From Xiphophorus maculatus (lineage: Eukaryota > Chordata > Actinopteri > Cyprinodontiformes > Poeciliidae), in NCBI RefSeq assembly GCF_002775205.1, contig NC_036456.1, positions 24,255,968 through 24,319,967 of the forward strand: DNA of 64,000 bases, written 5' to 3'. Below the pieces are notes generated by a model. It did not search any database. It had not been told where the DNA came from and saw nothing but the letters and a program-made list of their open reading frames with translations. This document shows, in pieces, positions 4,515 through 46,200 of the stretch. Each line of letters starts with the position of its first letter. Position 1 is the stretch's first letter. The position numbers and the translations under genes were made by a program.

Positions 4515-7500
4515 CTACTCACATGTGTGAATTCTGATGTGAGAAGTTAAAAGGTATTTTTTAGTGAAACTTTTCCCACAGATCCCACAGGAGAAAGACT
4601 TCTCTCTTGTGTGACTCTTCATGTGATGAAGTAAAAATGACCTAAAAGGAAAACATTTTCCACAGGTCCCACATGAGAAAGAATTCTCACCTGTGTGAGT
4701 CTTCATGTGAAAATGTAAAAGGTGTTTTCCAGCAAAACATTTTCCACAGGTCGCACATGAGAAGGGCTTCTCACCTGTGTGAGTTCTCATGTGAGTAACT
4801 AAGTGAGATTTATACAACCAATTTCTTCCACAGGTGCCACAAGAGAAAGTCTTCTCACCTGTGTGAAATCTCATGTGAGCACTTAAAGTTTTTTTATGAG
4901 TGAAACTTTTCCCACAGGTTCCACAAGAGAACGGCTTCTCATCTGTATGAATTATCATGTGAGCAGTTAAGCTTTTTTTATGAGTAAAACGTTTTCCACA
5001 GATCTCACATGAGAAAGGCTTCTCTCCAGTGTGAATTCTCATGTGAATATTTAAACTTTTTTTATAAGTGAAACTTTTTCCACAAGTTCCACATGAGAAC
5101 GGCTTCTCACCTGTGTGAACTCTCATGTGATCAACTAACTGAGATTTAAACAAGCATTTTTTTCCACAGATACCACAAGAGATCGTCTTCTCACCTGTGT
5201 GAAATCTCATGTGAGCAGTTAAACTTTTTTTATGAGTGAAACTTTTTCCACAGGTCCCACATGAAAAAGCCTTCTCACCTGCGTGAGTTCTCATGTGATC
5301 AACTAAGTGAGATTTATTCAAGCATTTTTTTCCACAGATACCACAAGAGATCGCCTTCTCACCAGTGTGAACTCTCATGTGAACAGTTAAACTTTTTTTA
5401 TGAGCGAAACATTTTCCACAGGTCCCACATGAGAACGGCTTCTCACCTGTGTGAACTCTCATGTGACTAACCAAGTCAGGTTTCCTCCGGAAACTTTTTC
5501 CACAGTTCCCACATGAGAAAGGCTTCTCACCTGTATGAATCGTCATGTGATCAAGTAACTGAGATTTAGACGCAAAACCTTTTCCACAGGTTGTGCACGT
5601 GTAAGGCTTCTCACCTGAGTGAATTCTTATGTGTCTGTTTAAAATGCCAATCTGATGGAAACTTTTTCCACAAGCTGCACATGTGAACGGTTTTTCACCT
5701 GTATGAATTCTCATGTGATTAGTTAAACGACTCTTGTGAGGGTAACCTTTTCCACAGGTTGAACATGTGAAAGATTTCTTGGCCGTGTGAGTTCTCACGT
5801 GTATCATGAAGGAATTATTTCGAGAAAAGGTTTTATCACAAATTTTACAAGAATATAGATTTTGGTTTGGTTGAGTTTTCTTGTGTGTTTCTTTTTCTGA
5901 AGTCTCAGTTGTGCCTTTCTGCTGTTTGTTCACCAAAATGTCATCAGTCTCCTGTTTCAGCACAAGATGCTCTTCATCCTGACTGATGCAGAGTTGCTTT
6001 TCTTCGTCTTTGAACTGTTGATGTTCTGGTTCCTCTTGTTCCTCTTTTATCTGCAGAGGTTCTGGTTCCTCTTGTTCCCGTTTTATCTGCAGAGGTTCTG
6101 GTTCCTCTTGTTCCTCTTTTATCTGCAGAGGTTCTGGTTCCTCTTGGTCCCGTTTTATCTGCAGAGGTTCTGGTTCCTCATGTTCCCGTTTTATCTGCAG
6201 AGGTTCTGGTTCCTCTTGATCCAAAGTGGAGTTTTCCTCCGGGTTGCTGAGCTCATTGAGAACCTCCTCCTCTTTCCAGCATTGTGGGAGATCTGGACAA
6301 AAAGACAAAACAAAAGCTTGAATATGTGAGTCAAACAATGAGCCTTACACTTTCATTAACAAAAATTAAAATAAAAATATTTTTCAGCAAACATGTGCGC
6401 TTACATTAAAAAATAAAATCTCTGCCGCAGTTCATCTTTTTTAGCGATATTTTCTTGCCATTTGTGATATTAATTGGAAACGTGTTTTATGGATTTTCCT
6501 TAGAGATATTTAGTAGAAAGATGCGCTGTGAGAGTCTGGGGCTGTCCTTTTCACATTCTGCCAGTGAAAAGCTTTTTCACAGCTTGAGCACCTGGTGATC
6601 GCGTAGCTTAATCCACCGGATGGTTTGAGTTCTTTCGTAATAGGCGACCATGTATTTTATTTTTTTGGTAATAAATTCCTCAATTTTTGGACTTTTGTGT
6701 ACACTTATATGTGCTGTTATTATTCAATGATACAAAGTTTTGTTTGAGGGAAAAAAAAACAACAGAACTTAAACAATAATAAATATAAGAATACGCTCTA
6801 AGAAATCATAAATAAATGAATATTTTAAACACTCATTAAGCTCTTACCAGTAGTTTCTTGAACTGGCAGATTAGAGATTAGAGAGTCATGGATCTTAAAC
6901 TTTGATTTTTTTATTTTTTTTTTTAGGTTTTGTTGGCTCTATTGGCCTTTAATAACAGTTTTTAGACACGAAAGTGGGTTACGACAGAGAGGGAAAACGT
7001 GCAGCAGAGGTCATAATCCTGGTCAGTTTTGAATAACTAATAAAATTAGAGAGGCCTCCTACAAAATTATGCATGGATACTATTTGCCAATCAGTATATG
7101 CAAAAAGTCAAAAAGGAAATTAACATAAAATGCTCACTATTTTCACCCCGAAACCTTTTTGGCTTTGCATTCATATAAAAAAAAAGTTTTGTGGCGATGT
7201 CATTTATAATCGATAATGTATATAAATATTTTGTTTTACGTTGAGAGAATTAACCTTAGTTTTCACAATTGTTTGAGAAAAGAAGAAAATATATTTTTTT
7301 AATTAATGTGATTGTATTTTTAGTAAAGTTTTTTTTTATTCACAAATGTAAATTCAATAAAAGAATTCCTTGTTTTGAGACTTTTAAAATTGAGGTACTA
7401 AACTACTTTCAGTTACTCTTTCAATCAATCTATTAGCATTACCTTTCGCAGGTAAGAATGAAAGAAAATATCGCAATTTTACAAGCAGAATTTCTTGACT

Positions 7501-8607
7501 TTGCGGCTAGAATCTATCTTCTAAACAACCAAGAAATATTTCCCTTGTAACTAAATTGGCCCAGAGTAACTACTCTGGTTGTAAATATCTTAGCCTAGCT
7601 AATTTCCATACTGTGGAGTTTTTCTAACGAGAGAGAGCTGATGAGAAGCTGCTGTTAGAAGGGAAATGCTTTTCATACCAGAGGATTTTAGCAGGTCAGT
7701 CGGGATCAGAGCTGGATCTGTTTTTCTCCAGTCTTCTGTTTCACAGATCAGCTTCAAAATGTTGGTGTTTAGCTGTATCGTATAGATGCTACAAGTTAAC
7801 GCCCCAATATTTTAAAAATGTATGTTTTCTCAGAATGTGGAGGAATCAGGATTTAATTTTCTATTACACTGTTGGATAATTTGTCCTTTATCTTTAGCCT
7901 ATGTCAACCAGGACATCTCAGAAGTCACTGGACTGCTCCCAGTTTGACCAGCAGACTGAACCCTGTCTGTGCCCCGTGTTAGCAGTATAAATAAATCTGT
8001 ATTTTAATGTAAACTTTTTTCCCCATTCACTTTTTGTGCATTTTTATGTTCATGAATACATTGAGGTGTGTGTGTCTTCATCAATGTCAATATAAAAAAA
8101 ATATTGATCAGAATCAGCTGTATCACATAGAAACATTGTGCTCTTTAAAACAATTAAATAATCACATCAAAAAGTTGGAAATGTTGTCATTAGTGCTTTT
8201 TTAAATTTAATTTGAGTTTTCTATAATTCCCAAATCTAATTGGAGAGTGTGACACAATGTGTCAATGCCAGGCATTAACTTAAAATACTTTGTGCAACGA
8301 CTCTTTATAAAGTTCGGTCCATTTAATTATATTAGCTTACAACAGGACACATTCAGTTTGGCGGACGCTGTGGCGTAACAAGGCGTCTACGTATTCATGT
8401 CTGTGGTCTCATCTGTATCGGTAAAACGTGAAGGTGTTTCGTACCTATCCGGTGTAAGATGATCTGCGGTATCCGGGTAAAATCCATCAGTCTGCGCTGA
8501 TCCTCCATCTCTTCCTCCATCTTAACGTTGATTTCCTTCAACTCTGTGAATGTTTCTCCAGATACCTGATCTTTCATAAACTCTCTCCGAGGCTGAAATG
8601 AAGACAT
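4515..8607 (-). CDS. ZNF-1: C2H2 zinc-finger protein, 16 fingers
   Basis: Two exons: 8607-8445 (54 codons plus one base) and 6292-4515, joined in phase 1 across GT..AG (donor GTACGA, acceptor TTGTCCAG). Product 646 residues. Residues 1-54 are the conserved N-terminus ([14 protein letters not shown]), here with Phe4 and a shorter QVSGETF segment. The linker, to about residue 195, has five EPEPLQIK repeats carrying IKRE, IKRD or IKEE motifs, then FKDE and LKQE. Sixteen fingers with TGEKP-type linkers follow. Fingers 7 and 9 have Cys at the conserved Phe position (GKKCL) and finger 13 has Trp (GRNWL). Fingers 6-10 alternate two types, as if a two-finger unit had duplicated. It is the only intact gene of the family on the minus strand, head-to-head with ZNF-2. 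The array ends HTCE and a stop next to a hAT-like insertion. Likely a nuclear DNA-binding regulator; target unknown. Confidence 0.9.
6021..6220 (-). repeat. 36-bp coding minisatellite in the ZNF-1 linker
   Basis: Six tandem units of about 36 bases, the last divergent, encode EPEPLQIK followed by REHE, RDQE, EEQE or REQE. Copies of this repeat occur in every family member in the window except ZNF-3/4, in different numbers, as expected for slippage or unequal exchange in frame. Confidence 0.85.
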
Positions 8608-10350: not shown

Positions 10351-13300
10351 ATGTCTTCAGTTCCGCCTCAGAGAGAGTTTATGAACGAGCAGGTAACTCC
10401 TGCTGGAGAAACATTCACAGAGTTTAAAGAAATCAACGTTAAGATGGAGGAAGAGATGGAGGATCAGCGCAGACTGATGGATTTTACCCGGATACCGAGG
10501 ATCATCTTACACCGGATTGGTACGAAACACCTTCATGTTTTACTGATGATATTTAGAAACAGGTTAAAGACAACAAGAGACATGGTAGGATTTTTTGGGG
10601 GGTCGACGTTGTACTCAAAATAAAGCAAGAATAACAAATCTGTCTCAGCTGGAAATATTGAATAATTAGAATGATAAACCCTGACCTTTACTATTTGCAA
10701 TTCATTATATAAGATCAAAATGCAGTTTATGTTCCGTGACTCCCTCATCTTTACCTCACCAGCTTAAGAAAGTACTGAAGGTTGTGTTTAAAATGATTAA
10801 TTGTATTTATGTTTTGAGTTTAATCTTAAATTCATGATTATTTAGGTTCATTCTATGTTAAATTATGGCTCATATTTTGTGTTCTCTGTTATTTGGATAC
10901 ATATAGAAGTAAGTCAGTTGAGTGTTGATTGAAAAATGAATATTGACTTCATTAAAAATCATGCAACTTTTGCCATAGATTAGTAGTTTAAAAACTATAC
11001 ACTCAAAATTAATGGCAGAGACAATGACAGCAATGATTCTCAGCTTCTGGACAGAGAGAATAAATGGTTTGAAACAGAGTGAAAGACTCCATCTTTGCCA
11101 AGAAAAAACTAAAAAACACTCTGAATTTCTTTCAGTATTTCATAAGTACAAAACAGAAGTTACTCTTCAAATTCTTCAGTAGAAGACAAATTGTAGTCTT
11201 TGATCACACTTAAAAAACTTAGTTTTATCCCAAATGATCCAAAACAAATGGTGCAAAAACTGTTAGTGTTTCTTTATCATTCACTTTGTTTAGCATCTTT
11301 TATTTACTGCTGTTTAAAAATTAAAAAGCCTGGACAAAACTAAACCAGTCAAATCTGAAATATTCCAAAACAAGCCCCAAAAACAAAATGGAAAATGTTT
11401 GTTCTGCTTTGTTAAAATACACTGAACAAAAATATAAACGCCCAATGTCAAATGTAAGAGCTTTAAGAACATTCTGTTACGCAATATAAAGAGAAACTCA
11501 AAATATATTTGTACTAATTACTGATCTTCAAATTGGACTTGATAACAATCGTGATGTGGCCAGTTGTAGCGGATTGACAGACCTTTGAACATGAAAGGGG
11601 TCAGGTTGAGGAATTTGATTTTTCAGTATCTTGTGTGTCCGCCAGCTATGTCTCAGAGCAACACATCTTCTTCGCATGGAGTTGATCAGATTGTCCATGG
11701 TGACCCGCATTGCCTGGAACTGGAAGCCGGTCCTTGACACGCCCATCCAGAACATCCCAAAGATGCTCTATCGGGGACATGTCTCCGTTTGGTCCGATAA
11801 TGGACATTGAGCCATTCAGCTACCGCTCTGGTGGACATCCCTGCATCCAACATGCCAATGGCACGCTCTAACTTGCGACATTTGAGGCGTTATGATTTGT
11901 GACAAAGTTTGATATTTTGGGGTGGCCTTTTATTGTCCCCAGTCCAAGGATTGTCCAGTTGTTGCTCATTTTGTCTGATCACCCTCTGGACATGCCCCAA
12001 ACATGCACTGGGTAAAAAACAACTCACTGAATAATGCTCACTGACAGCATTATACACAAATCAAGACAAATATTAATTTTGTACATTAAAATGACAGCAA
12101 ATGCTCATTTACAGTTGTTGACTCCACATGGCAACAGTATTTGACATGGGGTGTTTATATTTTTGTTGAGATTTAAAATAAATAACTGAAACAAAAAAAT
12201 AACAGTACATGATAACTTTTTTTATACTGATAACTGATAGATTTCTCATTCCAGGTCCCAGTAATAACTGATAACACACCTGAAAACAAGAAAGGCTCGT
12301 GTAACATTAGCACTTGAAATTGATGTAATCCAACTGGCAAAAATATAAAGCTACACACAAATTTTAAGTACTGTAATAAACACTAAATGAAATTTAAATT
12401 CAGCTTTAACTTATCAAAGATTTTGTTCTGTTGTAATTTATGGCTTTACATTTCATTCTGTTGTCTAAACATCTAGGTTGTACTTGTGTCCCTTCTTTAA
12501 AATCCTCTTCTCCATCTCGTCAGGTTTTCTCCATGCTGCAGTTTTAATTTTTTAACCCGAGTTTAGGTGGTTTGATAAAATTGTTATCTCGATTCTCCAT
12601 GTTCTTTGTCACTTAAGTTGCTGAGTTGTAGATGAGTTTCATCCTCATAAGATTCCCTGATATTAGCTGAGTTTAGGGTCTGGAAGTTGATCTTCTTTCC
12701 TCTCAAAACCCGACTTCAGTGTATTTAGACGTCACTGTTTCAGCACATCCAGTGGTAATTCTGGTCTAATATTACTGTTTTCCAATCCAGCATTGTCAGA
12801 CCATTACTTAATCTTTTGTTAGTCTACAAGTTTCAATAGTTGAGATTAAAAAGCACTTTAGGCATTCAATGTTAGTATTTTATGTCATGCATATCACATA
12901 AATCACATATTTTATGTGATATGTATTTACATAGAGGAAGTAGATTTTTGGAATATTTACTGGGAAGACACTGAGTTAAGCTATCATATTGTTTGCTCAA
13001 CCAGAAGTTTGTAATATATTTTGACTCTCATCTAGGTAAGTTAATTTGTCATATATATAAGTTTTTAATTTTAAAATAATAAAAAAAATCATGTCGAGAT
13101 GAAGGTTTCAATCCTTGACTGACATTTAAAAGCTTTTGTTTTTTTCTTTTGTCCAGATCTGTGTAAAAAAGAGGAGGTTCTCAATGAGCCGAGCAACCAG
13201 GAGGAAAACTCCAATTTAGATCAAGAGGAACCAGAACCTGTGCAGATAAAACAGGAACAAGAGGAACCAGAACCTCTGCAGATAAAACAGGAACAAGAAG

Positions 13301-14478
13301 AACCAGAACATCAAGAGTCCAAAGAGGAAGAGAAGCAACTCTGCATCAGTCAGGATGATGAGCATCTTGTGCTGAAACAGGAGACTGATGACATTTTGGT
13401 GAATCCTTCTAATGTGCAAAGAATCCACAATGAAACAGAACCACAGAGGAACCAACTCATCTCTCATGGCTCTGCTGAGGATGAGAACCAGGATCAGGAA
13501 GGAAGCAATTCTGAAGAGCCAGGAAAAAAGAGAAAGGAAGAACAGAAACAAAAGGAGAAATATGAGAAAACTAAACAACAGAAAGGCAGAACTGACACTG
13601 AAAAACAAAAAGAGCACAAGAAAGCTCACGCAGGGCAAAAATTATATTCTTGTAAAATTTGTGATGAAACCTTTTCTGAAAACAGTAACTTGATGAGACA
13701 CATAATAACTCACACAGGAGTAAAACCTTTCACTTGTTCAGCTTGTGGGAAAAGTTACAGACAAAAGGCTGGTTTAATTTATCACATGAGAAGTCACACA
13801 GGGGAGAAGCCATTCTCTTGTGAGAATTGTGGAAAAAGTTTCTCTCAAAAAGGTAATTTAAATGTTCACATGAGAATTCACACAGGTGAGAAGCCTTTCT
13901 CCTGTGGGACCTGTGGAAAGAGTTACAGTGAAAGAGGGACTTTAACTAAGCACATGAGAATTCACACAGGTGAGAAACCTTTCTCATGTGAAACCTGTGG
14001 AAAATGTTTCTCTAAAAAATATCATTTAAATGTTCACCTGACAATTCACACAGGTGAGAAGCCTTTCTCTTGTGAGAATTGTGGAAAAGGTTTCTCTCAA
14101 AAAGTTCATTTAAATGTTCACATGAGAATTCACACAGGTGAGAAGCCTTTCTCCTGTGGAACCTGTGGAAAGAGTTACAGTGAAAGAGGGATTTTAACTA
14201 AGCACATGAGAATTCACACAGGTGAGAAACCTTTCTCCTGTGGAACCTGTGAAAAAAGTTTCTCTAAAAAATGTCATTTACTTGATCACATGAGAATTCA
14301 CACAGGTGAGAAGCCTTTCTTCTGTGGAACCTGTGGAAAGAGTTACAGTGAAAGAGGGACTTTAACTAAGCACATGAGAATTCACACAGGTGAGAAGCCT
14401 TTCCTATGTGGGACCTGTGGAAAGGGTTACAATAATGGAATTATTTTAACTCGTCACATGAAGATTCACTCAGACTAG
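10351..14478 (+). CDS. ZNF-2: C2H2 zinc-finger protein, 10 fingers
   Basis: Exons 10351-10519 and 13157-14478, phase 1 (donor GTACGA, acceptor TTTTGTCCAG), 496 residues. Exon 1 encodes [18 protein letters not shown] (56 residues), with Met11 and Phe25 where most copies have Ile and Trp. The linker, to about residue 215, has EPEPVQIK and EPEPLQIK repeats with IKQE motifs, then LKQE and a basic [10 protein letters not shown] stretch that may help nuclear import. Ten fingers follow with regular TGEKP linkers. Several share the helix SERGTLTKH, a set also seen in ZNF-3/4, which makes these two close relatives. The intron (2.6 kb) holds a Tc1 copy at 11420-12170. A sequence-specific nuclear regulator is inferred. 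Confidence 0.92.
11420..12170 (-). mobile_element. Decayed Tc1/mariner element in the ZNF-2 intron
   Basis: Ends are CACTGAACAAAAATATAAACGCC on the left and GTGTTTATATTTTTGTT on the right, the inverted repeats of a widespread fish Tc1-like element. The minus strand at 11528-11755 encodes a transposase C-terminal relic ([15 protein letters not shown]). At about 750 bp it has lost most of the transposase. The paralogous ZNF-7 intron near 39215-39240 reads straight through (GTTAAAATAGATTTAAAATA) and is the empty site, so the insertion postdates that duplication. The last few bases of the right end appear lost. Confidence 0.85.
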
Positions 14479-22700: not shown

Positions 22701-25700
22701 AAGGGCGGACCACTTAGTGCTAATCCCTGTCTGGTACGGGCGGATCCCTGGCGCCGAAAAGTCCTGAGATGAGATTTCGCAGATACCTCTGAAGTCTCTT
22801 CCCCCAAACTCCCGTACTTCTGCCCCATCGGAATGCTAATTTTATGGCTCTGTGTGACAGCGGGAGGCCCCTGCTTGTCTGAATGCCTGCTATTCGGCCC
22901 CATCCCGCATCTCAGACAAAACCTGTTCCAAATAAGAGTATTGAATATAACTTTTACACATGTCGTAAGATTAACTGTATTAAGCACTAAAAATAATCGT
23001 TTTTCCTTAACAGGGGCAAGGTGAGAGTTCATCTATTGAACTCACTGAAGATGAATACATAAACTAAAATCTGGAGCATAGACATTTGTTTATAAGTGTA
23101 TTTGTGAGCCTGCCTTTTTATTATTAAACTGAATATAATTTCAGATCTTTGTATAACTTTTCTTCAGGTTAACTTAGAAAGTGTGATATTATTGTTACAG
23201 GTTAGTTTTCTAAACTACAAAGAAGTAACTGTTAGGGATTCTCAAATATGAAAAACTGGATTGATATTGATATCTGATAGTAACACTTGTGTTATGCCAG
23301 ATTTACCAATAGTATATTTTATAATTTTTTTATCCCTTTACTCGATTAATCATAATAATCAATAGATTGCTCAATTACTAAAATACAACACTACTATCCA
23401 TCCAGTCATCATTAAAACCAATTTATTAACTTATCTCTTGTGTCTATATGCTGAAGTGACAGCGCCTCTTAATTTGCATGCATACTCAATACATATAAGC
23501 TATTCTGACAGAATAACGGCCCAAATTTAAGTTAAAGAAGGTCAGTGTTAGCCCCACCCAAAGCCCCGCCCTCCACTTTGATTGGGGAATTATTTTATGG
23601 GGACACTGCAGGAACTGGAACCAGGTGATGATAATAATGATCACAACAATTAAATGTATATTTAATAATTGTCTGGACTGGCTGCTAAGTTTCCATTTCA
23701 ATAATGTAATGACATATTTAATAAATTGTGTATTAAATTAACGCTTTAAATTATTATATCATTGTCCATTTTCACCTTTCACATTTAATCTTCCAAATTG
23801 TCCAATATTCATGTCAAATATTTTCAATAGGATCATTTTGCCATTATTTTCTGCATGTTAACAACAATCACCCCACTGTTACCAATTCTGCTGCGAATCG
23901 CAGGAAAGTAAAGCCTGAGATTTAGTCGTGCTTTTGAAAGTTTGTGTTGAGTGTGTGAGTGGAGCAATGTCTGACAATATCAGTGGGTGAGATTAAAAAA
24001 ATAGTTAGTGTTTTGCGTTAGGCATTTTATGTCACTATTTAATATGATATATATCCTGCAGCTACATGGAAGAGGAAATTTTTATGTAATATTTGACAGG
24101 AAGCCAATAAGTTAAGCTATCACCATCTTGTTTGCTCACCTGGAGGTCCATAATATCATATTTTGACTCGCATCTAATTCCATTCTGGTCAGAAGAACCT
24201 CATTGGTTGAGTTAATGGTCATTCTTGTAAGACTGTGATTTTAGACTAACCCAAGAAAATCCTGTTTTGATGCATCAAGAGATTAAAGTGTAGGATTCCT
24301 TGTTTGATTGACATTTAAAAGCTTTTGTTTTGTCTTTTTGTCCAGATCTCCCACAATGTTGTGTGTGTAAAGAGGAGGAGGTTCTCAATGAAACAGAACC
24401 ACAGAGGAACCAACTCATCTCTCATGGCTCTCCAGAAGCTGAGAAGCGGGATCAGGAAGGAATCAATTCTGAAAACCCAGGAAAAGAGAGAAAGGAAGAA
24501 CAAAAACAAAAGGAGAAATATGAGAAAACCAAAGAGCAGAAAGGAAGAACTGACACTTCAAAACAACAAACACACAAGAAAGCTCACGGAAGGCAAAAAT
24601 TACATTCTTATAAAATTTGTGATGAAACCTTTTCTGAAAACAGTAACTTGATGAGACACATAATAACTCACACAGGAGTAAAACCTTTCACTTGTTCAGC
24701 CTGTGGGAAAAGTTTCAGACAAAAGGTTGGTTTAATTTATCACATGAGAATTCACACAGGTGAGAAGCCTTTCTCATGTGTGACCTGTAGAAAGAGTTAC
24801 AGTGAAAGACGGACTTTAAATAAGCACATGAGAATTCACACAGGTGAGAAGCCTTTCTCATGTGGGACCTGTGGAAAAAGTTTCTCTCGAAAAGGTCATT
24901 TAAATAAGCACATGAGAATTCACACAGGTGAGAAGCCTTTCTCATGTGGGACCTGTGGAAAAAGTTTCTCTCGAAAAGATACTTTATATGATCATATGAA
25001 AATTCACACAGGTGAGAAGCCTTTCTCCTGTGGGAATTGTGGAAAAAGTTACGCTCATAGAGGGACTTTAACTATGCACATGAGAATTCACACAGGTGAG
25101 AAGCCTTTCTCTTGTGGGAATTGTGGAAAAGGTTTCTCTCAAAAAGGTCTTTTAAATGCTCACTTGAGAATTCACACAGGTGAGAAACCTTTCTCCTGTG
25201 GGACCTGTGGAAGGAGTTACAGTGACAGAGGGACTTTAAATAAGCACATGAGAATTCACACAGGTGAGAAGCCTTTCTCATGTGGGACCTGTGGAAAAAG
25301 TTTCTCTGTAAAATATCATTTAAATGTTCACTTGAGAATTCACACAGGTGAGAAACCTTTCTCCTGTGCGACCTGTGGAAAGAGTTACAGTGAAAGAGGG
25401 ACTTTAAATAACCACATAAGAATTCACACAGGTGAGAAGCCTTTCTCATGTGGAACCTGTAGAAAGAGTTACAGTGAAAGACGGACTTTAAATAAGCACA
25501 TGAGAATTCACACAGGTGAGAAGCCTTTCTCATGTGGGACCTGTGGAAAAAGTTTCTCTCGAAAAGGTCATTTAAATAAGCACATGAGAATTCACACAGG
25601 TGAGAAGCCTTTCTCATGTGGGACCTGTGGAAAAAGTTTCTCTCGAAAAGATACTTTATATGATCATATGAAAATTCACACAGGTGAGAAGCCTTTCTCC

Positions 25701-26453
25701 TGTGGGAATTGTGGAAAAAGTTACGCTCATAGAGGGACTTTAACTATGCACATGAGAATTCACACAGGTGAGAAGCCTTTCTCTTGTGGGAATTGTGGAA
25801 AAGGTTTCTCTCAAAAAGGTCTTTTAAATGCTCACTTGAGAATTCACACAGGTGAGAAACCTTTCTCCTGTGGGACCTGTGGAAGGAGTTACAGTGACAG
25901 AGGGACTTTAAATAAGCACATGAGAATTCACACAGGTGAGAAGCCTTTCTCATGTGGGACCTGTGGAAAAAGTTTCTCTGTAAAATATCATTTAAATGTT
26001 CACTTGAGAATTCACACAGGTGAGAAACCTTTCTCCTGTGCGACCTGTGGAAAGAGTTACAGTGAAAGAGGGACTTTAAATAACCACATAAGAATTCACA
26101 CAGGTGAGAAGCCTTTCTCATGTGGAACCTGTGGAAAATGTTTCTCTGTAAAATATCATTTAAATGTTCACTTGAGAATTCACACAGATGAGAAGCCTTT
26201 CTCATGTGGGACCTGTGGAAAAAGTTTCTCTCGAAAAGATAGTTTATATGATCATGTGAAAATTCACACAGGTGAGAAGCCTTTCTCTTGTGGGACCTGT
26301 GGAAAGAGATACTCTAAAAGAAGGACTTTAACTCATCACATGAGAATTCACACAGGTGAGAAGCCTTTCTCTTGTGGGACATGTGGAGAAAGTTTCAGGA
26401 TGAAAACTCAATTACTGACACACATAAAGATTCATATGAGTGCCAAACAGTGA
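16787..26453 (+). CDS. ZNF-3/4: C2H2 zinc-finger gene, 22 fingers, ATG lost
   Basis: Exon 1 16787-16955 and finger exon 24346-26453 are the only unpaired exons in order, so I join them (phase 1; donor GTACGA, acceptor TTTTGTCCAG) across a 7.4-kb intron. The usual ATG is CTG (AAACTGTCT). No in-frame ATG lies upstream back to a stop at 16715, so translation would need CTG (758 residues) or the internal Met32 (727). Exon 2 starts [20 protein letters not shown]: the whole IKxE repeat block is missing, with the junction at a CAATGA microhomology. Finger 1 has lost its first cysteine (HSYKIC). Fingers 3-10 and 11-18 are a near-perfect duplication. Four more fingers follow, ending [10 protein letters not shown] poly(A) signal AATAAA lies at 26873. 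The intron was enlarged by L1, hAT and Rex3 insertions. It may be a pseudogene in the making, although the long frame is intact; pairing with another exon 1 cannot be excluded. Confidence 0.68.
17461..17579 (+). mobile_element. SINE 3'-end fragment
   Basis: Carries GACTGGCGACCTGTCCAGGG, then an AAGGGTGTTAGAAAATGG tail with ATGGATG repeats, matching the 3' part of the complete tRNA-derived SINE at 44442-44791 (there on the minus strand). The tRNA-like head is absent. Confidence 0.7.
17636..18560 (+). mobile_element. 5'-truncated L1/Tx1-type LINE
   Basis: The 3' end of a non-LTR element: ORF2 C-terminal relic ([19 protein letters not shown], then [20 protein letters not shown], a zinc-knuckle-like CxxC..H motif typical of L1 ORF2 ends), a 3' UTR, AATAAA and a 14-base A tail. 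A 12-base target duplication, TTCTAATATATA, lies at 17624-17635 and 18561-18572. The exact duplication and A tail suggest a fairly young insertion, although the coding part is already broken into at least two frames. Confidence 0.88.
18573..19615. other. Intron sequence of ZNF-3/4 with a foldback-arm fragment
   Basis: No gene. Around 18951-19010 (GAAGCTGAAGTTGG.., GGCTAAAGGGCGATT) matches an arm of the foldback element at 33495-34074. A TTAA/AATT microsatellite of about 26 bases lies at 19232-19257. Confidence 0.5.
19626..21168. mobile_element. hAT-like DNA transposon with a nested Rex3 copy
   Basis: Bounded by a direct repeat GATTCTATGT at 19616-19625 and 21169-21178 (hAT elements make 8-bp duplications). 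The ends are loosely inverted: AGGGGTGCAAC on the left, AGTGACGCAAA on the right read from the other strand. It is about 1.54 kb, or about 0.86 kb without the Rex3 inside it. A possible minus-strand exon end ([12 protein letters not shown] followed by GTAAGT, near 20890-20935) may be a transposase or host-like exon remnant. Family assignment is tentative. Confidence 0.55.
19982..20660 (-). mobile_element. Rex3 (RTE-clade) LINE, 5'-truncated
   Basis: The minus strand encodes the C-terminal part of the reverse transcriptase ORF in one open frame: [66 protein letters not shown] and [12 protein letters not shown]. The 3' end is the ATGGATGG-type repeat at 19982-20000. The frame runs on 5' into the surrounding element without a Rex3 start, so the copy is truncated. 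The open frame suggests moderate youth. It lies inside the hAT-like element at 19626-21168. Confidence 0.85.
21179..24345. other. Remaining intron of ZNF-3/4; unclassified repeats
   Basis: Mixed sequence without a convincing exon. GGGCTGAAACGATTCCTC near 21472 resembles a hAT-type end. GC-richer DNA at 21690-22380 and 22400-23030 has several open but unrecognised frames, and part of the latter could belong to an old LTR-type repeat, unproven. From about 23940 the sequence resembles the 3' part of the family intron (TTTTATGTCACT, then CTACATGGAAGAGG), and so leads into the finger exon. Confidence 0.35.
24772..26115 (+). repeat. 672-bp internal tandem duplication of eight fingers
   Basis: Two adjacent blocks at an offset of 672 bases (8 x 84) encode fingers 3-10 and 11-18 with the same residues throughout, apart from FSCVTC against FSCGTC at the start. 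At DNA level I see only one or two differences over the whole block, including synonymous sites. This marks a very recent in-frame unequal exchange or slippage. Confidence 0.92.
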
Positions 26454-29624: not shown

Positions 29625-31902
29625 ATGTCTTCAGTTCCGCCTCAGAGAGAGTTTATCAACGAGCAGGTAACTCCTGCTGGAGAAACATTCACAGAGTGGA
29701 AAGAAATCAACGTTAAGATGGAGGAAGAGATGGAGGATCAGCGCAGACTGATGGATTTTACCCGGATACCGAGGATCATCTTACACCGGATAGGTACGAG
29801 GCAGAAATATAATGTTATGTGTAAATTTCATATACTAAAATAAACAGTAAATGAAACTACAAATTTGATAAGAAACATTTCTCCAAATATTTTTTTTCTA
29901 AATAAAACTATCGAAAGCGATACTTCTCAATGTATATGGGTTGAAGCCAAATATTTAAATGCACTGAATAAAAAGACAAATTTCAAGTTAAATCAGAGAA
30001 AACTTGTCGTCTTTTAACCTAGATAGAATGACCAATTATTTGTATTTGCTAAATGCTAGAAAACTTGTCCAGTCCAGGTGACCCCGCGCACCAGCACCTC
30101 CAACCCCACTAGGGACAAGGGTGTTAGAAAATGGATGGATAGAAAACTTAGCGAGAACGTTTCAATAAAGTTCAGTCATGTTTATTTGCATAGCACATTT
30201 CAGCAACAAGAAAGTTCAAAGTGCTTTACAGCATAAAAATACAAAGTCATAGAACACGCAGTCAATAATTGAAGCATTGCATATTGTCAAGTGTCAACAA
30301 TCGATTCAGTGAATTATTGTGTAAACTGCTTTATACTGCTGCAAGCATTATAAAACAGATTTCAACTTTAACTTGTCAAAGTCTTTGTTTTGTTGTCATT
30401 TATGGCTTTACCTGTTATTCTATTGTCTAAGCATCTAGGTTGCTCTTCTTTAAAAGATGAAGGTGTCCCTTCTTTAAAATCCTCTTTTCCATCTCGCGAG
30501 GCTTTCTCCATGTTGCACTTTTAATTTTTTAACCTGAGTTTATGTGGTTTTATAACATTATTCCAAAAATCTGGAGACACAAGAAGTTTGTAATATCACA
30601 TTTTGACTCTCATCCAGTTGAGTTCATTTTTCAGTTTATAAATTTTTAATTTTAAAATGATCCAAGAAAGCCATGTTTAGATGAAGATTCTGATCTTTGA
30701 CTGACATATAAAAGCTTTTTTTTTAATCTTTTTGTCCAGTTCTGTTTAAAGAGGAGGAGGTTCTCAATGAGCCCAGCAACCAGGTGGAAAACTCCACTTT
30801 ATATCAAGAGGAACCAGAACCTCTGCAGATAAAACAGGAACAAGAGGAACCAGAACATCTGCAGATAAAACAGGAACAAGAGGAACCAGAACATCTGCAG
30901 ATAAAACAGGAACAAGAGGAAAGAGAACATCAACAGTTCAAAGAGAAGCAACTCTGCATCAGTCAGGATGAAGAGCATCTTGTGCTGAAACAGGAGACTG
31001 ATGACATTTTGGTGATTCCTTCTAATGTGCAAAGAATCCACAATGAAACAGAAGCACAGAGGGACCAACTCATCTCTCATGACTCTGCTGAAACTAACCA
31101 GGATCAGAAAGGAAGCAATTCTGAAGACCTTGGAAAAAAGAGAGACAAAGAACAGAAACAAAAGGAGAAATATGAGAAAACCAAACAGCAGAAAAGTAAA
31201 ACTGACAGTTTGAAACAAAAAAGGTACAAGAAAGTTCACCTCAACCAAAAGTTATATTCTTGTAAAATTTGCGATAAAACCTTTTCTCGAAAGAATTCTT
31301 TGCCTAGACACATGAAAATTCACACGGGAGAGAAATGTTTCCAATGTCCAGTCTGTGGAAAAAGTTACCGTTACAAGACTGGTTTTATTTATCACTTGAG
31401 AATTCACACAGGTGAAAAACCATTCACATGTTCAATCTGTGGAAAACATTACCGTTTAAAGGGCGCTTTAAAGAATCACATGAGGATTCATGTTGGTGAG
31501 AAGCCTTTTTCTTGTACGACCTGTGAAAAAAGTTTTACCAGTAACAATTATTTAGCAATTCACATGAAGTCTCACACGGATGAGAAGCGTTATTCATGCG
31601 AGACTTGTGGAAAACATTTTGGTTACAAATGTTATTTAAACATTCACATGAGGATTCACACAGGTGAGAAACCTTTTTCATGTCCAAGTTGTAGAAAGAA
31701 ATACAGGCAAAGAGCCACTTTAACTCGACACATGAGAATTCACACAGGTGAGAAGCGTTATTCATGTGAGACTTGTGGAAAACATTTTGGTTACAAATGT
31801 GATTTAAATCTTCACACGAGGATTCACAAAAATGAGAAGCCTTTTTCTTGTGTGACTTGTGGAAAAACTTTCCCTCAGAGAAGCAATTCCACTGTTCAAT
31901 GA
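29625..31902 (+). CDS. ZNF-5: C2H2 zinc-finger protein, 7 fingers plus a broken one
   Basis: Exons 29625-29793 and 30740-31902, phase 1, 443 residues. Exon 1 is the consensus [18 protein letters not shown]. Exon 2 opens [15 protein letters not shown] (others begin DLWK or DLCK). The linker has EPEPLQIK and two EPEHLQIK repeats, giving three IKQE motifs, then a fourth repeat changed to EREHQQFKEK, then LKQE. Seven full fingers follow; two contain KHFGYKC, a type shared with ZNF-8. The eighth stops at RSNSTVQ: compared with ZNF-6 and ZNF-7 one T is missing just before the zinc-binding histidines, and the shifted frame meets TGA at once. The lost tail would have been the usual REHMMA. The rest of the gene looks intact. 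The short intron (0.95 kb) contains a SINE fragment. Confidence 0.88.
30064..30139 (+). mobile_element. SINE 3'-end fragment in the ZNF-5 intron
   Basis: TGTCCAGTCCAGGTGACC, then GGGACAAGGGTGTTAGAAAA and TGGATGGAT match the 3' part of the SINE at 44442-44791. Just downstream (about 30174-30260) lies another common fish repeat tail (TTTATTTGCATAGCACATTT, AAAGTGCTTTACA). Confidence 0.65.
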
Positions 31903-33242: not shown

Positions 33243-35911
33243 ATGTCTTCAGTTCCGCCTCAGAGAGAGTTTATCAACGAGCAGGTAACTCCTGCTGGAG
33301 AAACATTCACAGAGTGGAAAGAAATCAACGTTAAGATGGAGGAAGAGATGGAGGATCAGCGCAGACTGATGGATTTTACCCGGATACCGAGGATCATCTT
33401 ACACCGGATAGGTACGAGGCAGAAATATAAAGTTATGTGTAAATTTAAAATACTAGAATAAACACAAAATAAAAGTACATAACAAATTTGACTATCGAAG
33501 CTGAAGTTGGTTTCCGATTCCACCTAATCTTTCACTACCTTCCTCATCTTTAATCTATTATATAAAAAGAACTACATCACCTAGACACTTTAACTTGGAC
33601 TAGATTATTCTGATCTGATAGAATATTTTAATCCTTGTTTGGGATTTGTGAAACCTTTTTCTGATTTGTGAGACTTCACTGAAGTTCAGATTACTATTCA
33701 CACTTGTTCCATGCAGTTTTTTTTCAAATTCAAATTCAATTCTAATACAAAACCACTTTATTAATCCCAATGGGAAATTAAATGTTGGTGTAACTCATGA
33801 ATTCTTCAGAGTTATTGTAGATGGCGATGGCTGTTGGAAGGTAAGATCTTCTGCAGTGGTCTATTAAGTGAAGTTTCACAAATCAGTTAAAGGTTTCACA
33901 AATCCCAAACGTAGATTTACATATTCTACTATTAGTGCAGAATAATCCAGTCCAAGTTTCTACATGTTGTAATTTTTTTTTACTAGAATAGATTAAAGAT
34001 GAGGAATATAGTGAAAAATTTGGTGGAATTGCCCTTTAGCCATTTCCCAAATCGGAAACCAACTTCAGCTTTGTATTTGACTAGAAGAAACATTTCTAAA
34101 ATAATTTTTTCCCCCCCAAAATAAAACAATCCAAATCAATACTTGGTGATGTACGTATATGGGGTGAAGCCAGATGCACTGAATAAAAAGAAACATTGGA
34201 AATTAAATCAGAGAAAACTTATCGTCTTTTAGCCTAAATAGAATGACCAAAATTATTCCTGTTTGCTAAATGCTAGAAAGCTTAGCGAGAACATTTAACT
34301 TATTAAAGTCATTGTTCTATTGTCCTTCATCATGGCTTTACTAAATCTAAGCCTCTAGTTTGTACTTGTGACCCTTCTGTGCTTTCTTATTGGGAATCCT
34401 CTTTTTTATCTCGTCAGGCTTTCTCCATGTTGCACTTTTAATTTTATAACCTGAGTTTAGGTGGTTTTATAATGTTGTCCTGATTCTCCATGTTCTTTGC
34501 CACTTCAGCTGCTGAGTTGTGGACGTGTTTCATCCTCATAAAATTCCCTGAGATTAGCTGAGTTTAGGGTCTGGAAGTTGATCTTCTTTCCTGTCAAAAC
34601 CCGACTTCAGTGTATTTAGACGTCACTGTTTCAGCACATCCAGTGGTAATTCTGGTCTAATATTACAGTTTTCCAATCCAGCATCAATCCTTCTTATAGT
34701 CAGGCCATTACTTAATCATTTCTTAGTTTGCAAGTTTCAATAGTTGAGATTACAAACCACTTTTCATAATTATAAGTTTTTAATTTTATGTTAATCCAAG
34801 AAAATCTTGTTTAAATGCATCAATGGATTAAATTGAAGGGTTCGACCTCTAACTGACATTTTCAAAGCTTTTGTTTTTTTCTTTTTGTCCAGGTCTGTGT
34901 AAAGAGGAGGAGGTTCTCAAAGAACCCAGCAACCAGGTGGAAAACTCCACGTTAGATCAAGAGAAACCAGAACCTCTGCAGCTAAAACAAGAAAAAGAAG
35001 AACCAGAACCTCTGCAGATAAAACAAGAAAAAAAAGAACCAGAACCTCTGCAGATAAAAAAAGAAAAAGAAGAACCAGAACATCTGCAGATAAAACAAGA
35101 ACAAGAGGAACCAGAACATCAACAGTTCAAAGAGGAAGAGAAGCAACTCTGCATCAGTCAGGATGAAGAGCATCTTGTGCTGAAACAGGAGACTGATCAT
35201 ATTTTGATGATTCCTTATAATATGAACAGAATCCACAATGAAACAGAACCACAGATGAACCAACTCATCTCTCTTGACTCTGCTGAAACTAACCAGGATG
35301 AGAAAGGAAGCAATTTTGAAGATCCAGGAAAAAAGAGAAACGAAGAACAAAAACAAAATGAGAGAAGTCAGAAAACCAAAAGCACAACCGAAAGTTCAAA
35401 CCAAAAATTATATTCTTGTAAAATTTGTAACAAAATCTTTCCGCGAAAGAATTCTTTGCCTAGACACATGAGAATTCACACGGGAGAGAAACCTTTCACA
35501 TGTACAACCTGTGGAAACAGTTACAGATACAAGAAAAATTTAATTTATCACTTAAAAATTTACAGAGGTGAAAAACCATTCACATGTTCAATCTGTGGAA
35601 AACAATACCATTTAAAGGACAGTTTAAAGAATCACATGAGGATTCACACGGGTGAGAAGCTTTTCACGTGTGGGATCTGTGGAAAAAGTTTCCCTCAAAA
35701 TGGTAATCTTTCTGCACACTTTAAAGTTCACGAAGGTCGGAAGTCTTTTTCTTGTGTGACTTGTGGAAAATCTTTTCGGTTTCAATCTCATTTCCTTCGT
35801 CATGTTAGAAGTCACACAGGTGAGAAGCCTTTCTCTTGTGTGATGTGTGGAAAAAGTTTCACTCGGAGAAGCAATTTAGCTGTTCATATCAGAGAGCACA
35901 TGATGGCATAA
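33243..35911 (+). CDS. ZNF-6: C2H2 zinc-finger protein, 6 fingers
   Basis: Exons 33243-33411 and 34893-35911, phase 1 (acceptor TTTTTGTCCAG), 395 residues. Exon 1 is the consensus N-terminus. Exon 2 opens GLCKEEEVLKEPSNQ. The linker has four repeats with LKQE, IKQE, IKKE and IKQE, then FKEE and LKQE; the spacers are unusually Lys-rich (KEKEE). Six fingers follow. Finger 2 ends HLKIYRGEKP, so its last zinc ligand is Tyr instead of His and it probably folds poorly. The last finger is complete and ends HIREHMMA, the family's normal C-terminus. The 3' UTR has AATAAA at 36327-36332. The intron carries a foldback element. Confidence 0.9.
33495..34074. mobile_element. Foldback element with long inverted arms
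   Basis: The left arm (GAAGCTGAAGTTGGTTTCCG.., CTCATCTTTAATCTATT.., GGGATTTGTGAAACC) is repeated inverted on the right, giving a palindrome of about 580 bp with arms of roughly 200-270 bases. It is flanked by the direct repeat ATTTGACTA (33486-33494, 34075-34083). The centre holds a piece of another repeat (CTTTATTAATCCCAATGGGAA). No coding capacity, so a non-autonomous DNA element. A fragment of one arm lies near 18951-19010. Confidence 0.75.
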
Positions 35912-38235: not shown

Positions 38236-40596
38236 ATGTCTTCAGTTCCGCCTCAGAGAGAGTTTATCAACGAGCAGGTAACTCCTGCTGGAGAAACATT
38301 CACAGAGTGTAAAGAAATCAACGTTAAGATGGAGGAAGAGATGGAGGATCAGCGCAGACTGATGGATTTTACCCGGATACCGAGGATCATCTTACACCGG
38401 ATAGGTACGAAACACCTTCATGTTTTACTGATTAGAGTTAGAAACATGTTAAAAATATCCAGGGAGAAGTTAGGAAAAGACCTGCACTTTTTTCTGCCTT
38501 ATTTATTTATTTGTTTGTTTGTTGCTTAGATCAATTATTGTAATTTTCCTCCTTAAATAACAACAACATTTTCATTTAACTTTATATTTTGGTCCATCTG
38601 ATTATGTACGTTTTAAATATCAAATGATTGATAATTCGATCAGTTACTCTGTGCTTGAGTAAACTTTTCATCAAATACCTTTTTACTCTTATTTAAGTAA
38701 AAATATGTTGAAGTAGTGCTACTGTTACCTGAGTACAATTTTTGCCAGTTCTGAAAGAGAGCAAAAGACGCCATCTTTGCCAAAAACAACAACAAAAAAA
38801 CAAAACAACTCTGAAGATGAGGAGGAAGGTTACGATATCAGCTTCCAAGCATCTACATATTTGTTTTGAAAGAAATTCAAAAGAAATGACACGAGTATTC
38901 CCATCATTCCACTCCAAGCAAGAGTCATATGAACCAGGTGGGGGATGAGCGGGTCGTTGATTTCCTGGGAATGCTCTGAAGAGGATGGACCCATCCACAA
39001 CAAAGACTCCTGCATGGGAGTCGAATATGGAGGCATTTTGGTGAAAATGTATTTGTGCCCTGTAACTGAGAAGTTGAAGTTCCAGAAAAAAGAAAAAATC
39101 CTTTAGGAGTTTTGTAATTGGTAGATTTTCTTTCAGTTACCCATAAATACAAAACAGCAGTTACACACTTCTTATTATAAAACAATCCCCAAAAACATAA
39201 TAAGGTTTGTTCCGGTTAGTTAAAATAGATTTAAAATAAATAACTCAAGTTAAACAATTAACAGTGGTTATTATTTGGAATGCACAATAACTTATTTTAA
39301 GAGATACTAATAACTGATAGTTACTCCAAATGCCGATAATGACCGATAACATACCTGGAAATAAGAATGGCAAGTGTAGCATTAATATTTAATAATAATG
39401 TAATCCAAGAGGCAGAAATATAAAGTCATGTCCAAATTTCAAATACTAAAATAAAAACTAAATAAAGAATATTACTATTTTATGTGATGTATATTCTGTA
39501 TCTACATAGAGGAAGGAGATTTCTGGATTATTCGCTGGGGGAGACAGCGAATAATCAGCTATTATGAATTTGTTTTCTCATCCAGAAGTTCGTAAATCAC
39601 ATTTTGATTCATCTAGCTGAGTTAATTTTTCATACTTATACGTTTTAAAATTTATAATAATCCAAGAAAAATCATGTTTAGATGCATCGATGGATTAAAA
39701 TTGACTGACATTTCAAAGCTTTTGTTTTTTCCTTTTGTCCAGATCTGTGGAAAGAGGAGGAGGTTCTAAATGAGCCCTGCAACCAAGAGGAAAACTCCAC
39801 TTTAGAACAAGAGGAACCAGAACCTCTGCAGATAAAACAGGAACAAGAAGAACCAGAACATCAACAGTTCAAAGAGGAAGAGAAGCAACTCTGCATCAGT
39901 CAGGATGAAGAGCAGCTTGTGCTGAAACAGGAGACTGATGACAATTTGGTGATTCCATCTAATGTACAAATATTCCACAATGAAACAGAATCACAGAGGG
40001 ACCAACTCATCTCTCATGGCTCTGCTGAGGATGAGAACCAGGATCAGGAAGGAAGAAATTCTGAAGACCTAGGAAAAAAGAGAGACGAAGAACAGAAACA
40101 AAAGGAGAGATGTCAGAAAACCAAAACTTGCAGTTCAAAACGAAAACTACGCAAGAAATCTCGTGCTCGCCAAATACGATACTTTTGTAAAATTTGCCAT
40201 AAAACTTTTTCTCGAAACGCATCTTTGACTAGCCACATGAAAATTCACAACGGCAATAAACCTTTCACATGTACAGTCTGTAGAAAAAGTTACAGGCACA
40301 AGAGGGGTTTAATTCATCACTTGAGAATTGTCACAGGTGAAAAACCGTTCACATGTTCATTATGTGAAAAACATTACCATTTAAAGGGCGCTTTAAAGAA
40401 TCACATGAGAATTCACACAGGTGAAAAACTGTTCACATGTTCATTATGTGAAAAACATTACCGTTTTAAGAGCGGTTTAAAGAATCACATGAGGTTTCAC
40501 ACGGGTGAGAAGCCTTTCTCTTGTGTGACTTGTGGAAAAAGTTTCATTCAGAAACGCACTTTAACTGTTCATATGAGAGTGCACATAATGGCATAA
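38236..40596 (+). CDS. ZNF-7: C2H2 zinc-finger protein, 5 fingers
   Basis: Exons 38236-38404 and 39743-40596, phase 1, 340 residues, the shortest of the intact members. Exon 1 has Cys in place of the usual Trp25 (TECKEIN). Exon 2 opens [15 protein letters not shown]. The linker has a single [10 protein letters not shown] repeat, then FKEE and LKQE, and a basic segment (SKRKLRKKSRARQIR) not seen in its relatives, a plausible nuclear-import signal. Five fingers follow. Finger 2 ends HLRIVTGEKP, losing its last His. Fingers 3 and 4 are near-copies (SLCEKHY). It ends HMRVHIMA. The 1.3-kb intron matches those of ZNF-2, -8 and -9. Confidence 0.9.
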
Positions 40597-43262: not shown

Positions 43263-46200
43263 ATGTCTTCAGTTCCGCCTCAGAGAGAGTTTATCAACGA
43301 GCAGGTAACTCCTGCTGGAGAAACATTCACAGAGTGGAAAGAAATCAACGTTAAGATGGAGGAAGAGATGGAGGATCAGCGCAGACTGATGGATTTTACC
43401 CGGATACCGAGGATCATCTTACACCGGATAGGTACGAAACACCTTCATGTTTTACTGATTAGAGTTAAAAACATGTTAAAAATGTCCAGGGAGAAGATAG
43501 GAAAAGACCTGCACTTTTTTATGCCTTATTTTTTTTTTTTTTGTTGCTTATATAAATTATTGTAATTTTCTTCCTTAAAAAACAACAACATTTTTATTTA
43601 ACTTTATATTTTGTCCATCTGATTATGTACTTTTTAAATATCAAATGATTGATAATTTGATCAGTTGCTCTGTGTTTGAATAAACTTTTCATCAAATACC
43701 TTTTTTACTCTTATTTAAGTAAAAATATGTTGAAGTAGTGCTACTGTTACCTGAGTACAATTTTTGTGTATTCGTTTCACCTTTGATAATAAATTAGTTT
43801 CTGATCTGTAGCTTCTTTAGCTGGTTAAAGTTTGTGTTGAAAATGATTAGTTTTATGTTTAATCTTATATTTATCATTGTTTAGGTTTTTTCTATGTTAT
43901 TTTCCTGTATATTTTATTTTCTCTGTATAAATATAGAAAACATTTAAGTGTTTACTGATACATTAATGTTAAATATGTTAAAACTCATTCAATTTTAACT
44001 ATAGATATGCAGTTTAAAAACTATAGACTCAAAATGAATGATAGAGACAATGACGCCAATGATTTCCAGGCTCTGGACAGAGAGAATAAACAGTCGAAAA
44101 CAGATTGAAAGACTCCATCTTTCCCAAAATAAGAAAAATAATCCCTCTGAACTGAGGGTGAAACTTACAGTTTCAGCTTCAAAGAATCTACAAATTTCTT
44201 ATGAACCTCATTCAAAAGAAATTACACGAGCATTCCCATCATTCCTCTCCAAACAATAGACTCAAATGAACCAGGTGGGGGATGAACGAGTCGTTGATTT
44301 ACATCTGACTGGGAAAACATATTTGCATACTTGTGAATATGTCTTTAAAAATCACTACATAGAAATGTTTAATCTGCTGTAGTACAAAAACTAGACTCAT
44401 CAACCTGGACTAGACAAATCTGAGATATCATAAAGCAATCCATCCATTTTCTGTTCACCCTTTGTCCCTAATGGGGTCGGGAGGGTTGCTGGTGCCTTTC
44501 TCTAGCTACGTTCCGGGTGAGAGGCGGGGTACACCCTGTACAGGTCGCCAGTCAATGCAAAGACATACAGGACAAACAACCATGCACACACACACAAACA
44601 CCTAGGGAGATTTTAGAGAGACCAATTAACCTAACAGCCATGTTTTTGGACTGTGGGAGGAAGCCGGAGAACGCACAGCATGCACAGGGAGAACATGCAA
44701 ACTCCATGCAGAAAGACCCCAGGCCGGGAATCGAACCCAGGACCTTCTTGCTGCAAGGCAACAGTGCTACCAACTGCGCCACTGTGCAGTCCATAAAGCA
44801 ATCCCTAAAAATAAAAATGTTTGTTCTTGTTAGTTAAAATAGATTTAAAATAAAGAACTCAAATTAAACAATTAACAGTGGTTATTATTTGGAATGCACA
44901 ATAACTACTGATAGTTACTCCAAATGCCGATAATAACCGATAACATACCTGGAAATAATAATGGCGAGTGTAACATTAATATTTAAAAATGATGTAATCC
45001 AAGAGGCAGAAGTATAAAGTCATGTCCAAATTTCAAATACTAAAATACAAACTAAATAAAGAATATTACTATTTTATGTGATGTGTATTCTGTATCTACG
45101 TAGAGGAAGGAGATTTCTGGATTGATGAGACACTGGTTCAACTATCATGATTTTGTTTTCTCAACCAGAAGTTTGTAATATCAAATTTTGATTCATCTAG
45201 CTGAGTTAATTTTTCATACTTATTAGTTTTAAAATAATCCAAGAAAATCATGTTTAGATGAAGTTTTTGATCTTTGACTGACATTTCAAAGTTTTTTTTT
45301 TTTGTCCAGATCTGTGGAAAGAGGAGGAGGTTCTAAATGAGCCCAGCAACCAAGAGGAAAACTCCACTTTAAATCAAGAGGAACCAGAACCTTTGCAGAT
45401 AAAACACGAACAAGAACCAGAACCTCTGCAGATAAAACACGAACAAGAACCAGAACCTCTGCAGATAAAACACGAACAAGAACCAGAACCTCTGCAGATA
45501 AAACAGGAGCAAGAAGAACCAGAACATCAACAGTTCAAAGAGGAAGAGAAGCAACTCTGCATCAGTCAGGATGAAGAGCATCTTGTGCTGAAACAGGAAA
45601 CGTATCACATTTTGGTGATTCCTTCTAATGTGCAAATAATCCACAATGAAACAGAACCACAGAGGAACCAACTCATCTCTCATGGCTCTGCTGAGGATGA
45701 GAACCAGGATCAGGAAGGAAGCAATTCTGAAGACCCAGGAAAAAAGAGAGACAAAGAACAGAAACAAAAGGAGAGATGTCAGAAAACCAAACAGCCAAAA
45801 AGCAAAACTTGCAGCTCAAAACAAAATACACACAAGAAACCTCGCACTGACCCAAAATTATATTCTTGTAAAATTTGCGAAAAAACCTTTTCTCAAAAAA
45901 ATTCTGTGACTCAACACATGAAAATTCACACAGGTGAGAAACCTTTCTCTTGTCCAACCTGTGGAAAAAGTTACAGTTACAAGAGTGGTTTAATTTATCA
46001 CTTGAGAATTCACACAGGTGAAAAACCATTCACATGTTCACTCTGTGGAAAACATTACCCTTTAAAGGAGACTTTGAAGAATCACATGAGGATTCACACG
46101 GATGAGAAGCCTTTTTCATGTCCAAGTTGTAGAAAAGGATTCAGTCAAAAAAGCACTTTAACTCGTCACATGAGAATTCACACAGGTGAGAAGCGTTATT

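Follow-up and report, generated by a model that had tools for sequence, protein, structure and literature searches.

A predicted acidic SUMO-type acceptor-site module, in part a coding minisatellite, in the linkers of a fish C2H2 zinc-finger gene family

Prolines flanking a ψKxE core define the synergy-control motif, and the negatively charged residue-dependent SUMO motif has an acidic window at positions +3 to +6. Synergy-control motifs are reportedly carried by GR, PR, SF-1 and, by the title of a reference, the Krüppel-type factor ZBP-89. In the available part of one source, such sites are described as SUMO sites that limit synergy on promoters with multiple binding sites (PMC3373386). The linkers described here resemble them in placing ψKxE within a regulatory stretch of a factor that binds DNA and in the proline flanks of the array units, but differ in that the predicted site is the unit of a coding minisatellite whose copy number varies from 0 to 11 between paralogs. 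Krüppel-type zinc-finger (ZNF) proteins are SUMO modified in human stem cells, according to the accessible portion of PMC8604812. The KRAB-ZNF/TRIM28 network is like the present family in being a C2H2 family with SUMO-type sites; here, however, no KRAB match was found in the translations searched, and the sites lie in a repeated linker. The finger array of PRDM9 is a coding minisatellite, as the part of PMC3890296 that was available describes. Both cases place a coding minisatellite inside a ZNF gene, but the repeat is the finger there and a modification-site linker here.

The FiNZ-ZNF genes, which like the present ones are a fish C2H2 expansion with an N-terminal segment on its own exon, presumably also hold ψKxE motifs within FiNZ. 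FiNZ-ZNF is described in the available text as cyprinid specific, with a glutamate-rich N-terminal segment of 28 residues on a separate exon, and the mechanism by which zebrafish FiNZ-ZNF proteins silence without TRIM28 is described there as not yet known; SUMO has 0 occurrences in the main text of that paper (PMC10547256). Compared by description, FiNZ differs from exon 1 of the present family, which has 56 residues. A literature search that reached few subscription papers found no description of SUMO-site arrays in fish ZNF linkers in the texts covered. A conserved multi-site SUMO-type module in another C2H2 expansion would be a candidate answer to TRIM28-free silencing, and the paralogs, which naturally carry 0 to 11 units, would offer a ready dose series.

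Linker arrays and SUMO-type motifs in the window

The window, meaning the whole stretch of 64,000 nucleotides that was analyzed, holds eight family genes that are part of a C2H2 zinc-finger cluster on contig C14. In all eight, exon 1 ends in HRI and exon 2, preceded by a CAG acceptor, encodes the linker and all of the fingers; the GT donor was checked in genes 1 and 8. TRF analysis indicated a 36-bp array of 5.6 copies with 93% matches at 6023-6222, in frame with a 609-codon minus-strand open frame that holds 16 fingers, and matches between copies were 82-97% across the window arrays. The features, with the evidence for each in parentheses, are as follows.

6023..6222, minus strand: gene 1 array of 36-bp units, encoding in protein order IKRE, IKRD, IKEE, IKRE and IKEE (TRF, codons)
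4518..6292, minus strand: gene 1 exon 2, linker and 16 C2H2 fingers, with the acceptor AG just before 6292 (open frame, acceptor, Pfam)
5949..5960, minus strand: gene 1 site C (LKQE), the most conserved of three aligned motif sites (sequence reading, conservation ranking)
8446..8607, minus strand: gene 1 exon 1, ending in HRI before a G-GT donor (tblastn, donor)
8515..8526, minus strand: gene 1 exon-1 VKME motif (sequence reading)
13222..13329, plus strand: gene 2 array, IKQE twice and a diverged terminal unit, SKEE (TRF, open frame, codons)
24312..26450, plus strand: gene 3 exon 2, 21 fingers with no linker module and no motif (open frame)
30805..30931, plus strand: gene 4 array, IKQE three times (TRF, open frame, codons)
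34965..35117, plus strand: gene 5 array, LKQE, IKQE, IKKE and IKQE, then FKEE (TRF, open frame, codons)
39805..39879, plus strand: gene 6, a single IKQE unit and a diverged terminal unit, FKEE (TRF, open frame, codons)
45381..45515, plus strand: gene 7 array of 33-bp units, IKHE three times and IKQE (TRF, open frame, codons)
50658..50847, plus strand: gene 8 array of mixed 33- and 36-bp units, IKQE, IKKE, IKLE, IKHE and IKQE (TRF, open frame, codons)

A sequence-only reading of this DNA had proposed that every 33- to 36-bp unit encodes ψ-K-x-E/D, which translation of the window genes confirmed, and its counts of IKxE-type repeats (5, 2, 0, 3, 4, 1, 4 and 5) match this translation, in which the 4 of gene 5 includes one LKQE. 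A minisatellite linker in seven of the eight genes had also been claimed; six have at least two units of 33 to 36 bp, but the seventh, gene 6, has only one IK unit and the terminal FKEE, and the remaining gene has none. The motifs said to follow the repeats, FKEE and LKQE, are present, but by translation the terminal unit is FKEK in gene 4 and SKEE in gene 2. VKME was found, as anticipated, in exon 1 of 8/8 window genes, and acidic residues indeed follow the motif: the seven motif-bearing linkers of the window contain 37 motifs, of which 27 have at least two acidic residues at +3 to +6.

By translation, all eight window genes have the SUMO consensus (large hydrophobic residue, K, any residue, E/D) in exon 1 and seven have it in the linker, and the array unit P-L-Q-ψ-K-x-E-Q-E-E-P fits the bare consensus as well as its acid-flanked and proline-flanked forms. 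At least two acidic residues occur at +3 to +6 in 63/89 array-type motifs and in 149/247 of all linker motifs. Proline was found within five residues on both sides of 78/89 array-type motifs, but of only 97/247 of all linker motifs. We conclude that the array unit, site A, has the proline flanks of a synergy-control motif and that the other sites in general do not.

We consider it fairly probable that the linker and exon 1 together form an acidic SUMO-type acceptor-site module that is repressive via predicted SUMOylation. By its sequence, the module comprises up to four classes of site: an array unit of 12 residues (site A), a terminal FKEE-type unit (site B), LKQE (site C) and, in exon 1, VKxE. 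Site A has the synergy-control form P-x-x-ψKxE-x-x-x-P, and a coding minisatellite multiplies or removes its copies. Ubc9 would conjugate SUMO to the motif lysines, clusters of SUMO on the DNA-bound protein would recruit SIM-bearing corepressors, and the module would thereby act as a repression or anti-synergy element. By analogy, SUMO-dependent repression is the most likely function, because known forms of SUMO site are found here, synergy-control sites are SUMO sites and Krüppel-type ZNF proteins are SUMO modified. Copy number would drift mainly by slippage, and selection probably maintains each working unit and not a fixed number, such that repeat number may be nearly neutral while each unit works. 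A broader proposal, which we regard as unlikely, concerns fish C2H2 repressors, fish being said to lack TRIM28 and KRAB-ZNFs: SUMO-site arrays would be their effector, and the minisatellite would make the number of sites, and hence the strength of corepressor recruitment, evolvable by single slippage steps.

Array-less genes and exon 1

An array tuned by its repeat length had been suggested as a possible effector of the family, a reading that found no support here: of 29 C14 genes whose exon 2 is complete, 13 carry no array unit and 4 have no linker motif, yet these four encode 10 to 21 fingers each. Units per sampled C14 gene ranged from 0 to about 11, with the maximum in locus L046, and unit number differed between close paralogs. 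The four module-less C14 genes are the following.

Window 24312-26450 (gene 3), and loci L009, L011 and L012: module-less genes

In their linkers KEEEVLNE is joined in frame to TEPQRNQ in three genes and to TELQRNQ in L009, which is consistent with loss of the module via deletion between two NE codon pairs. When each exon 2 was matched by eye to the nearest upstream exon 1, the exon-1 ATG was lost in 4 of the 12 array-less genes for which an exon 1 was seen, versus 0 of 13 array-bearing genes, L015 and L016 aside. The start codon is replaced by Leu or Ile in an otherwise open exon 1 at window 16787-16954 and in L011, L020 and L026, all of which are array-less genes. We conclude that some array-less genes may be failing.

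Quite possibly, if somewhat against our expectation, the effector is exon 1 itself, a conserved, partly helical segment of 56 residues that would recruit a TRIM33-like corepressor, a route proposed for KRAB-like and FiNZ proteins of fish, while the SUMO sites only modulate its activity. Consistent with such a role, 32 C14 matches to exon 1 extend beyond the N-terminus and 21 of them share 95-100% identity with the query; three copies on C13 were 73%, 54% and 55% identical, the last over 47 residues. AlphaFold placed a helix at residues 22-45 with a mean pLDDT of 67.8, a confidence too low for a fold search, and the exon-1 frame is still open in all four genes that lack a linker motif, although the ATG is missing in two. 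Moreover, TRIM33 was coimmunoprecipitated with other fish ZNF proteins, according to the available part of PMC11603059. High identity, however, would also result from homogenization of close tandem copies, and no above-cutoff Pfam match was obtained in 10 exon-1 translations (8 from the window and 2 from C13). At E≤1, 0 families matched 7 of the 8 window translations, and the eighth gave a subthreshold, unrelated match (DFRP_C, 0.036). A relationship of exon 1 to the KRAB box was likewise without Pfam support at E≤1 in the 10 translations, and the earlier remark that neither KRAB nor SCAN is visible agrees with the lack of a Pfam match to either in the 8 from the window. Finally, a conserved VKxE site sits inside exon 1: VK[MIL]E was found in all 32 C14 matches that cover the site (34 matches overall), and VKSE in 3/3 copies recovered from four upstream regions of C13 and C9, the one C9 region searched giving no exon-1 match. 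We conclude that an effector role of exon 1 would be compatible with the SUMO-module explanation and does not exclude it.

Two loci depart from the usual form of exon 1. Exon 1 of L012 is internally duplicated and so has two motifs, VKLE and FKME, and in L023 (C14 24574158-24578865) three successive copies of exon 1 lie upstream of one exon 2, together with a tandem EEEM repeat.

Conservation of the motif between and within linkers

The genome searched for ZNF loci comprised 704 Mb in 101 contigs, and loci were sampled by choice, as 20 of 106 regions plus 40 small regions among at least about 150 rows listed. From 61 records (the window and L009-L068), 66 distinct linker cores scoring >110 against a motif-holding query were placed in a query-anchored codon alignment of 61 columns; 33 came from C13, 32 from C14 and 1 from C9. 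At least the four module-less genes are absent from the alignment, columns of site A were masked in 12 rows without a unit and the tail was masked in 8 rows.

Three motif sites aligned, namely the array unit (A), FKEE (B) and LKQE (C). By weighted entropy over the 66 cores, their six K and E columns rank 2, 3, 4, 5, 6 and 10 of 61, and the hypergeometric probability that all six preset columns fall in the top ten is 3.8e-6, assuming independent columns. When redundancy was cut to 21 or 13 dissimilar sequences, the mean rank of the K and E columns was 6.7 or 5.8, with a chance probability of 2e-5 or 5e-6, respectively. Variability is among the highest at the x of site A (rank 53) and the ψ of site B (rank 55); x is fairly conserved at sites B and C (ranks 17 and 13), and thus K and E are not the sole residues kept there. 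At sites A and C, ψ stays within I/V/L/M/F with one exception row each, while at site B it is S, T or Y in 13/66 cores. K or E of site A was lost in 5/54 cores. The E codon of site A had a pS of 1.4, indicating synonymous saturation, and a pN of 0.056. For K, the codon at site C had a pS of 0.77 and a pN of 0.011, and that at site A showed zero synonymous change. If only C14 is considered, conservation is also high at several lysines in the basic segment, and the result for K therefore rests on the comparison of C14 with C13. Drift of K and E as free as that of their neighbors had been named in advance as evidence against the motif, and among the paralogs of this one genome the K and E columns are instead among the most conserved. 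We conclude that, to judge from these paralogs, K and the E at +2 are under constraint and that the ψ-K-x-E motif is probably under purifying selection.

One way in which E could be conserved is if selection favored an acidic spacer by charge and not a SUMO motif, an explanation that we find rather improbable. E columns 6, 16, 60 and 62 are also conserved, the advantage of the motif E columns over the remaining ones is weak (p 0.044) and K is replaced by R at site B in 4/66 rows, all of which a charged spacer would accommodate. Charge is indifferent to order, however, and yet in the 66 cores ψ-K-x-E/D occurs 2.45 times per core versus 0.27 after shuffling, an excess of about ninefold, whereas the reversed motif is depleted, at 0.03 per core versus 0.27 expected. 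Moreover, K is never R in 73 array units, and the lysine column of the core that lies outside the motifs (column 27) ranks 52/61. Three motifs were present in 39/66 cores, four in 2/66, two in 12/66 and one in 13/66.

Variation within arrays was tallied in units found by an upstream anchor and at least 4/9 letters shared with a motif-containing reference unit; two false matches and the terminal units were excluded by rule, and a few true units with an altered anchor were missed. The motif is intact in 73/73 anchored units from 20 C14 genes. Relative to the commonest codon, and counting units rather than independent events, the E codon was synonymous in 28/73 units and replaced in 1 (E to D), the x codon was synonymous in 5 and replaced in 29, and the ψ codon was synonymous in 0 and replaced in 9 (I to L or M). 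The K codon is AAA in all 73 units, with neither synonymous nor replacement change, and thus the invariance of K inside arrays says little alone; the first P codon likewise shows zero synonymous variation. Exon 1 has an ATG and an open frame in 13 of the 20 array genes (41 units) and was uncaptured for the other 7 (32 units). Terminal (site B) units on C14 were intact in 18/24 cases, with ψ being S in 5 and Y in 1. High conservation of the K and E columns, together with the large excess of synonymous over replacement change at the array E codon, supports selected SUMO-type sites.

Two neighboring duplicates carry an exon 1 that is frameshifted and lacks its ATG.

L015:4889-7400, at C14 24131190-24133676
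L016:4822-7330, at C14 24138244-24140734

In these genes the motif is intact in 6/14 units; units lost K or E, and the lesions were then multiplied by the repeat. The contrast between 73/73 and 6/14 intact units gives a Fisher p of 5e-8, which is overstated because L015 and L016 form a duplicate pair in which only two or three lesions are independent. We conclude that the pair is one natural experiment, not fourteen.

About as improbable as selection for charge is a neutral minisatellite in which units are alike as young mutual copies and the motif is a passenger: matches of 82-97% between copies, the K and first P codons without synonymous variation and the differing copy number of close paralogs fit such an origin, but the contrast of the E codon (28/1) with x (5/29) and the equal conservation of K and E at the single-copy sites B and C disfavor a pure minisatellite by-product, and the decay of units in L015 and L016, where exon 1 is broken, also argues against it. 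An artifact of composition is rejected, as shuffled cores give far fewer motifs (34 observed in 12 subfamily representatives picked by hand versus 3.3 ± 1.7 shuffled, with a maximum of 11 in 5000 shuffles).

Wider occurrence and further observations

Among eight ZNF loci, one to five linker motifs were found in L001 (C6), L002 (C4), L004 (C9), L005 (C6) and L007 (C13) and 0 in L003, L006 and L008. With motifs at five loci outside the cluster, motif-bearing linkers are not confined to C14. The relatives on C13 mostly have one to three units, but in L039, also on C13, there are four, which have diverged yet all retain a motif (IKQE, IKCE, IKQE and IKPE). The longest arrays among the sampled loci are on C14.

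Genes with fewer fingers tended to have more units (rho −0.41, n=29 C14 genes, relatedness uncorrected and with one gene counted as having 1 motif although it has 2). After site C, the sequence DDILV[NIT]P forms a hydrophobic patch with acids upstream that resembles a SUMO-interaction motif, and a loose version of the pattern occurs in 31/58 rows. At L057 (C13 8244450-8244880), fingers are followed in the same open frame of 858 codons by a linker that contains VKQE, IKVE and LKQE, as if exon 2 had been repeated head to tail and in frame.

Elsewhere in the window, a 271-codon open frame on the minus strand at 20018-20830 resembles a LINE remnant by eye and gave no Pfam match at E≤0.1. A 255-bp direct repeat at 1385-1639 and 2137-2391, 97% alike, carries a short ATG frame (MADPHPERSTYRIMESLLPG) before GTAAGT and may be a first exon, now duplicated, that belongs to a different gene.
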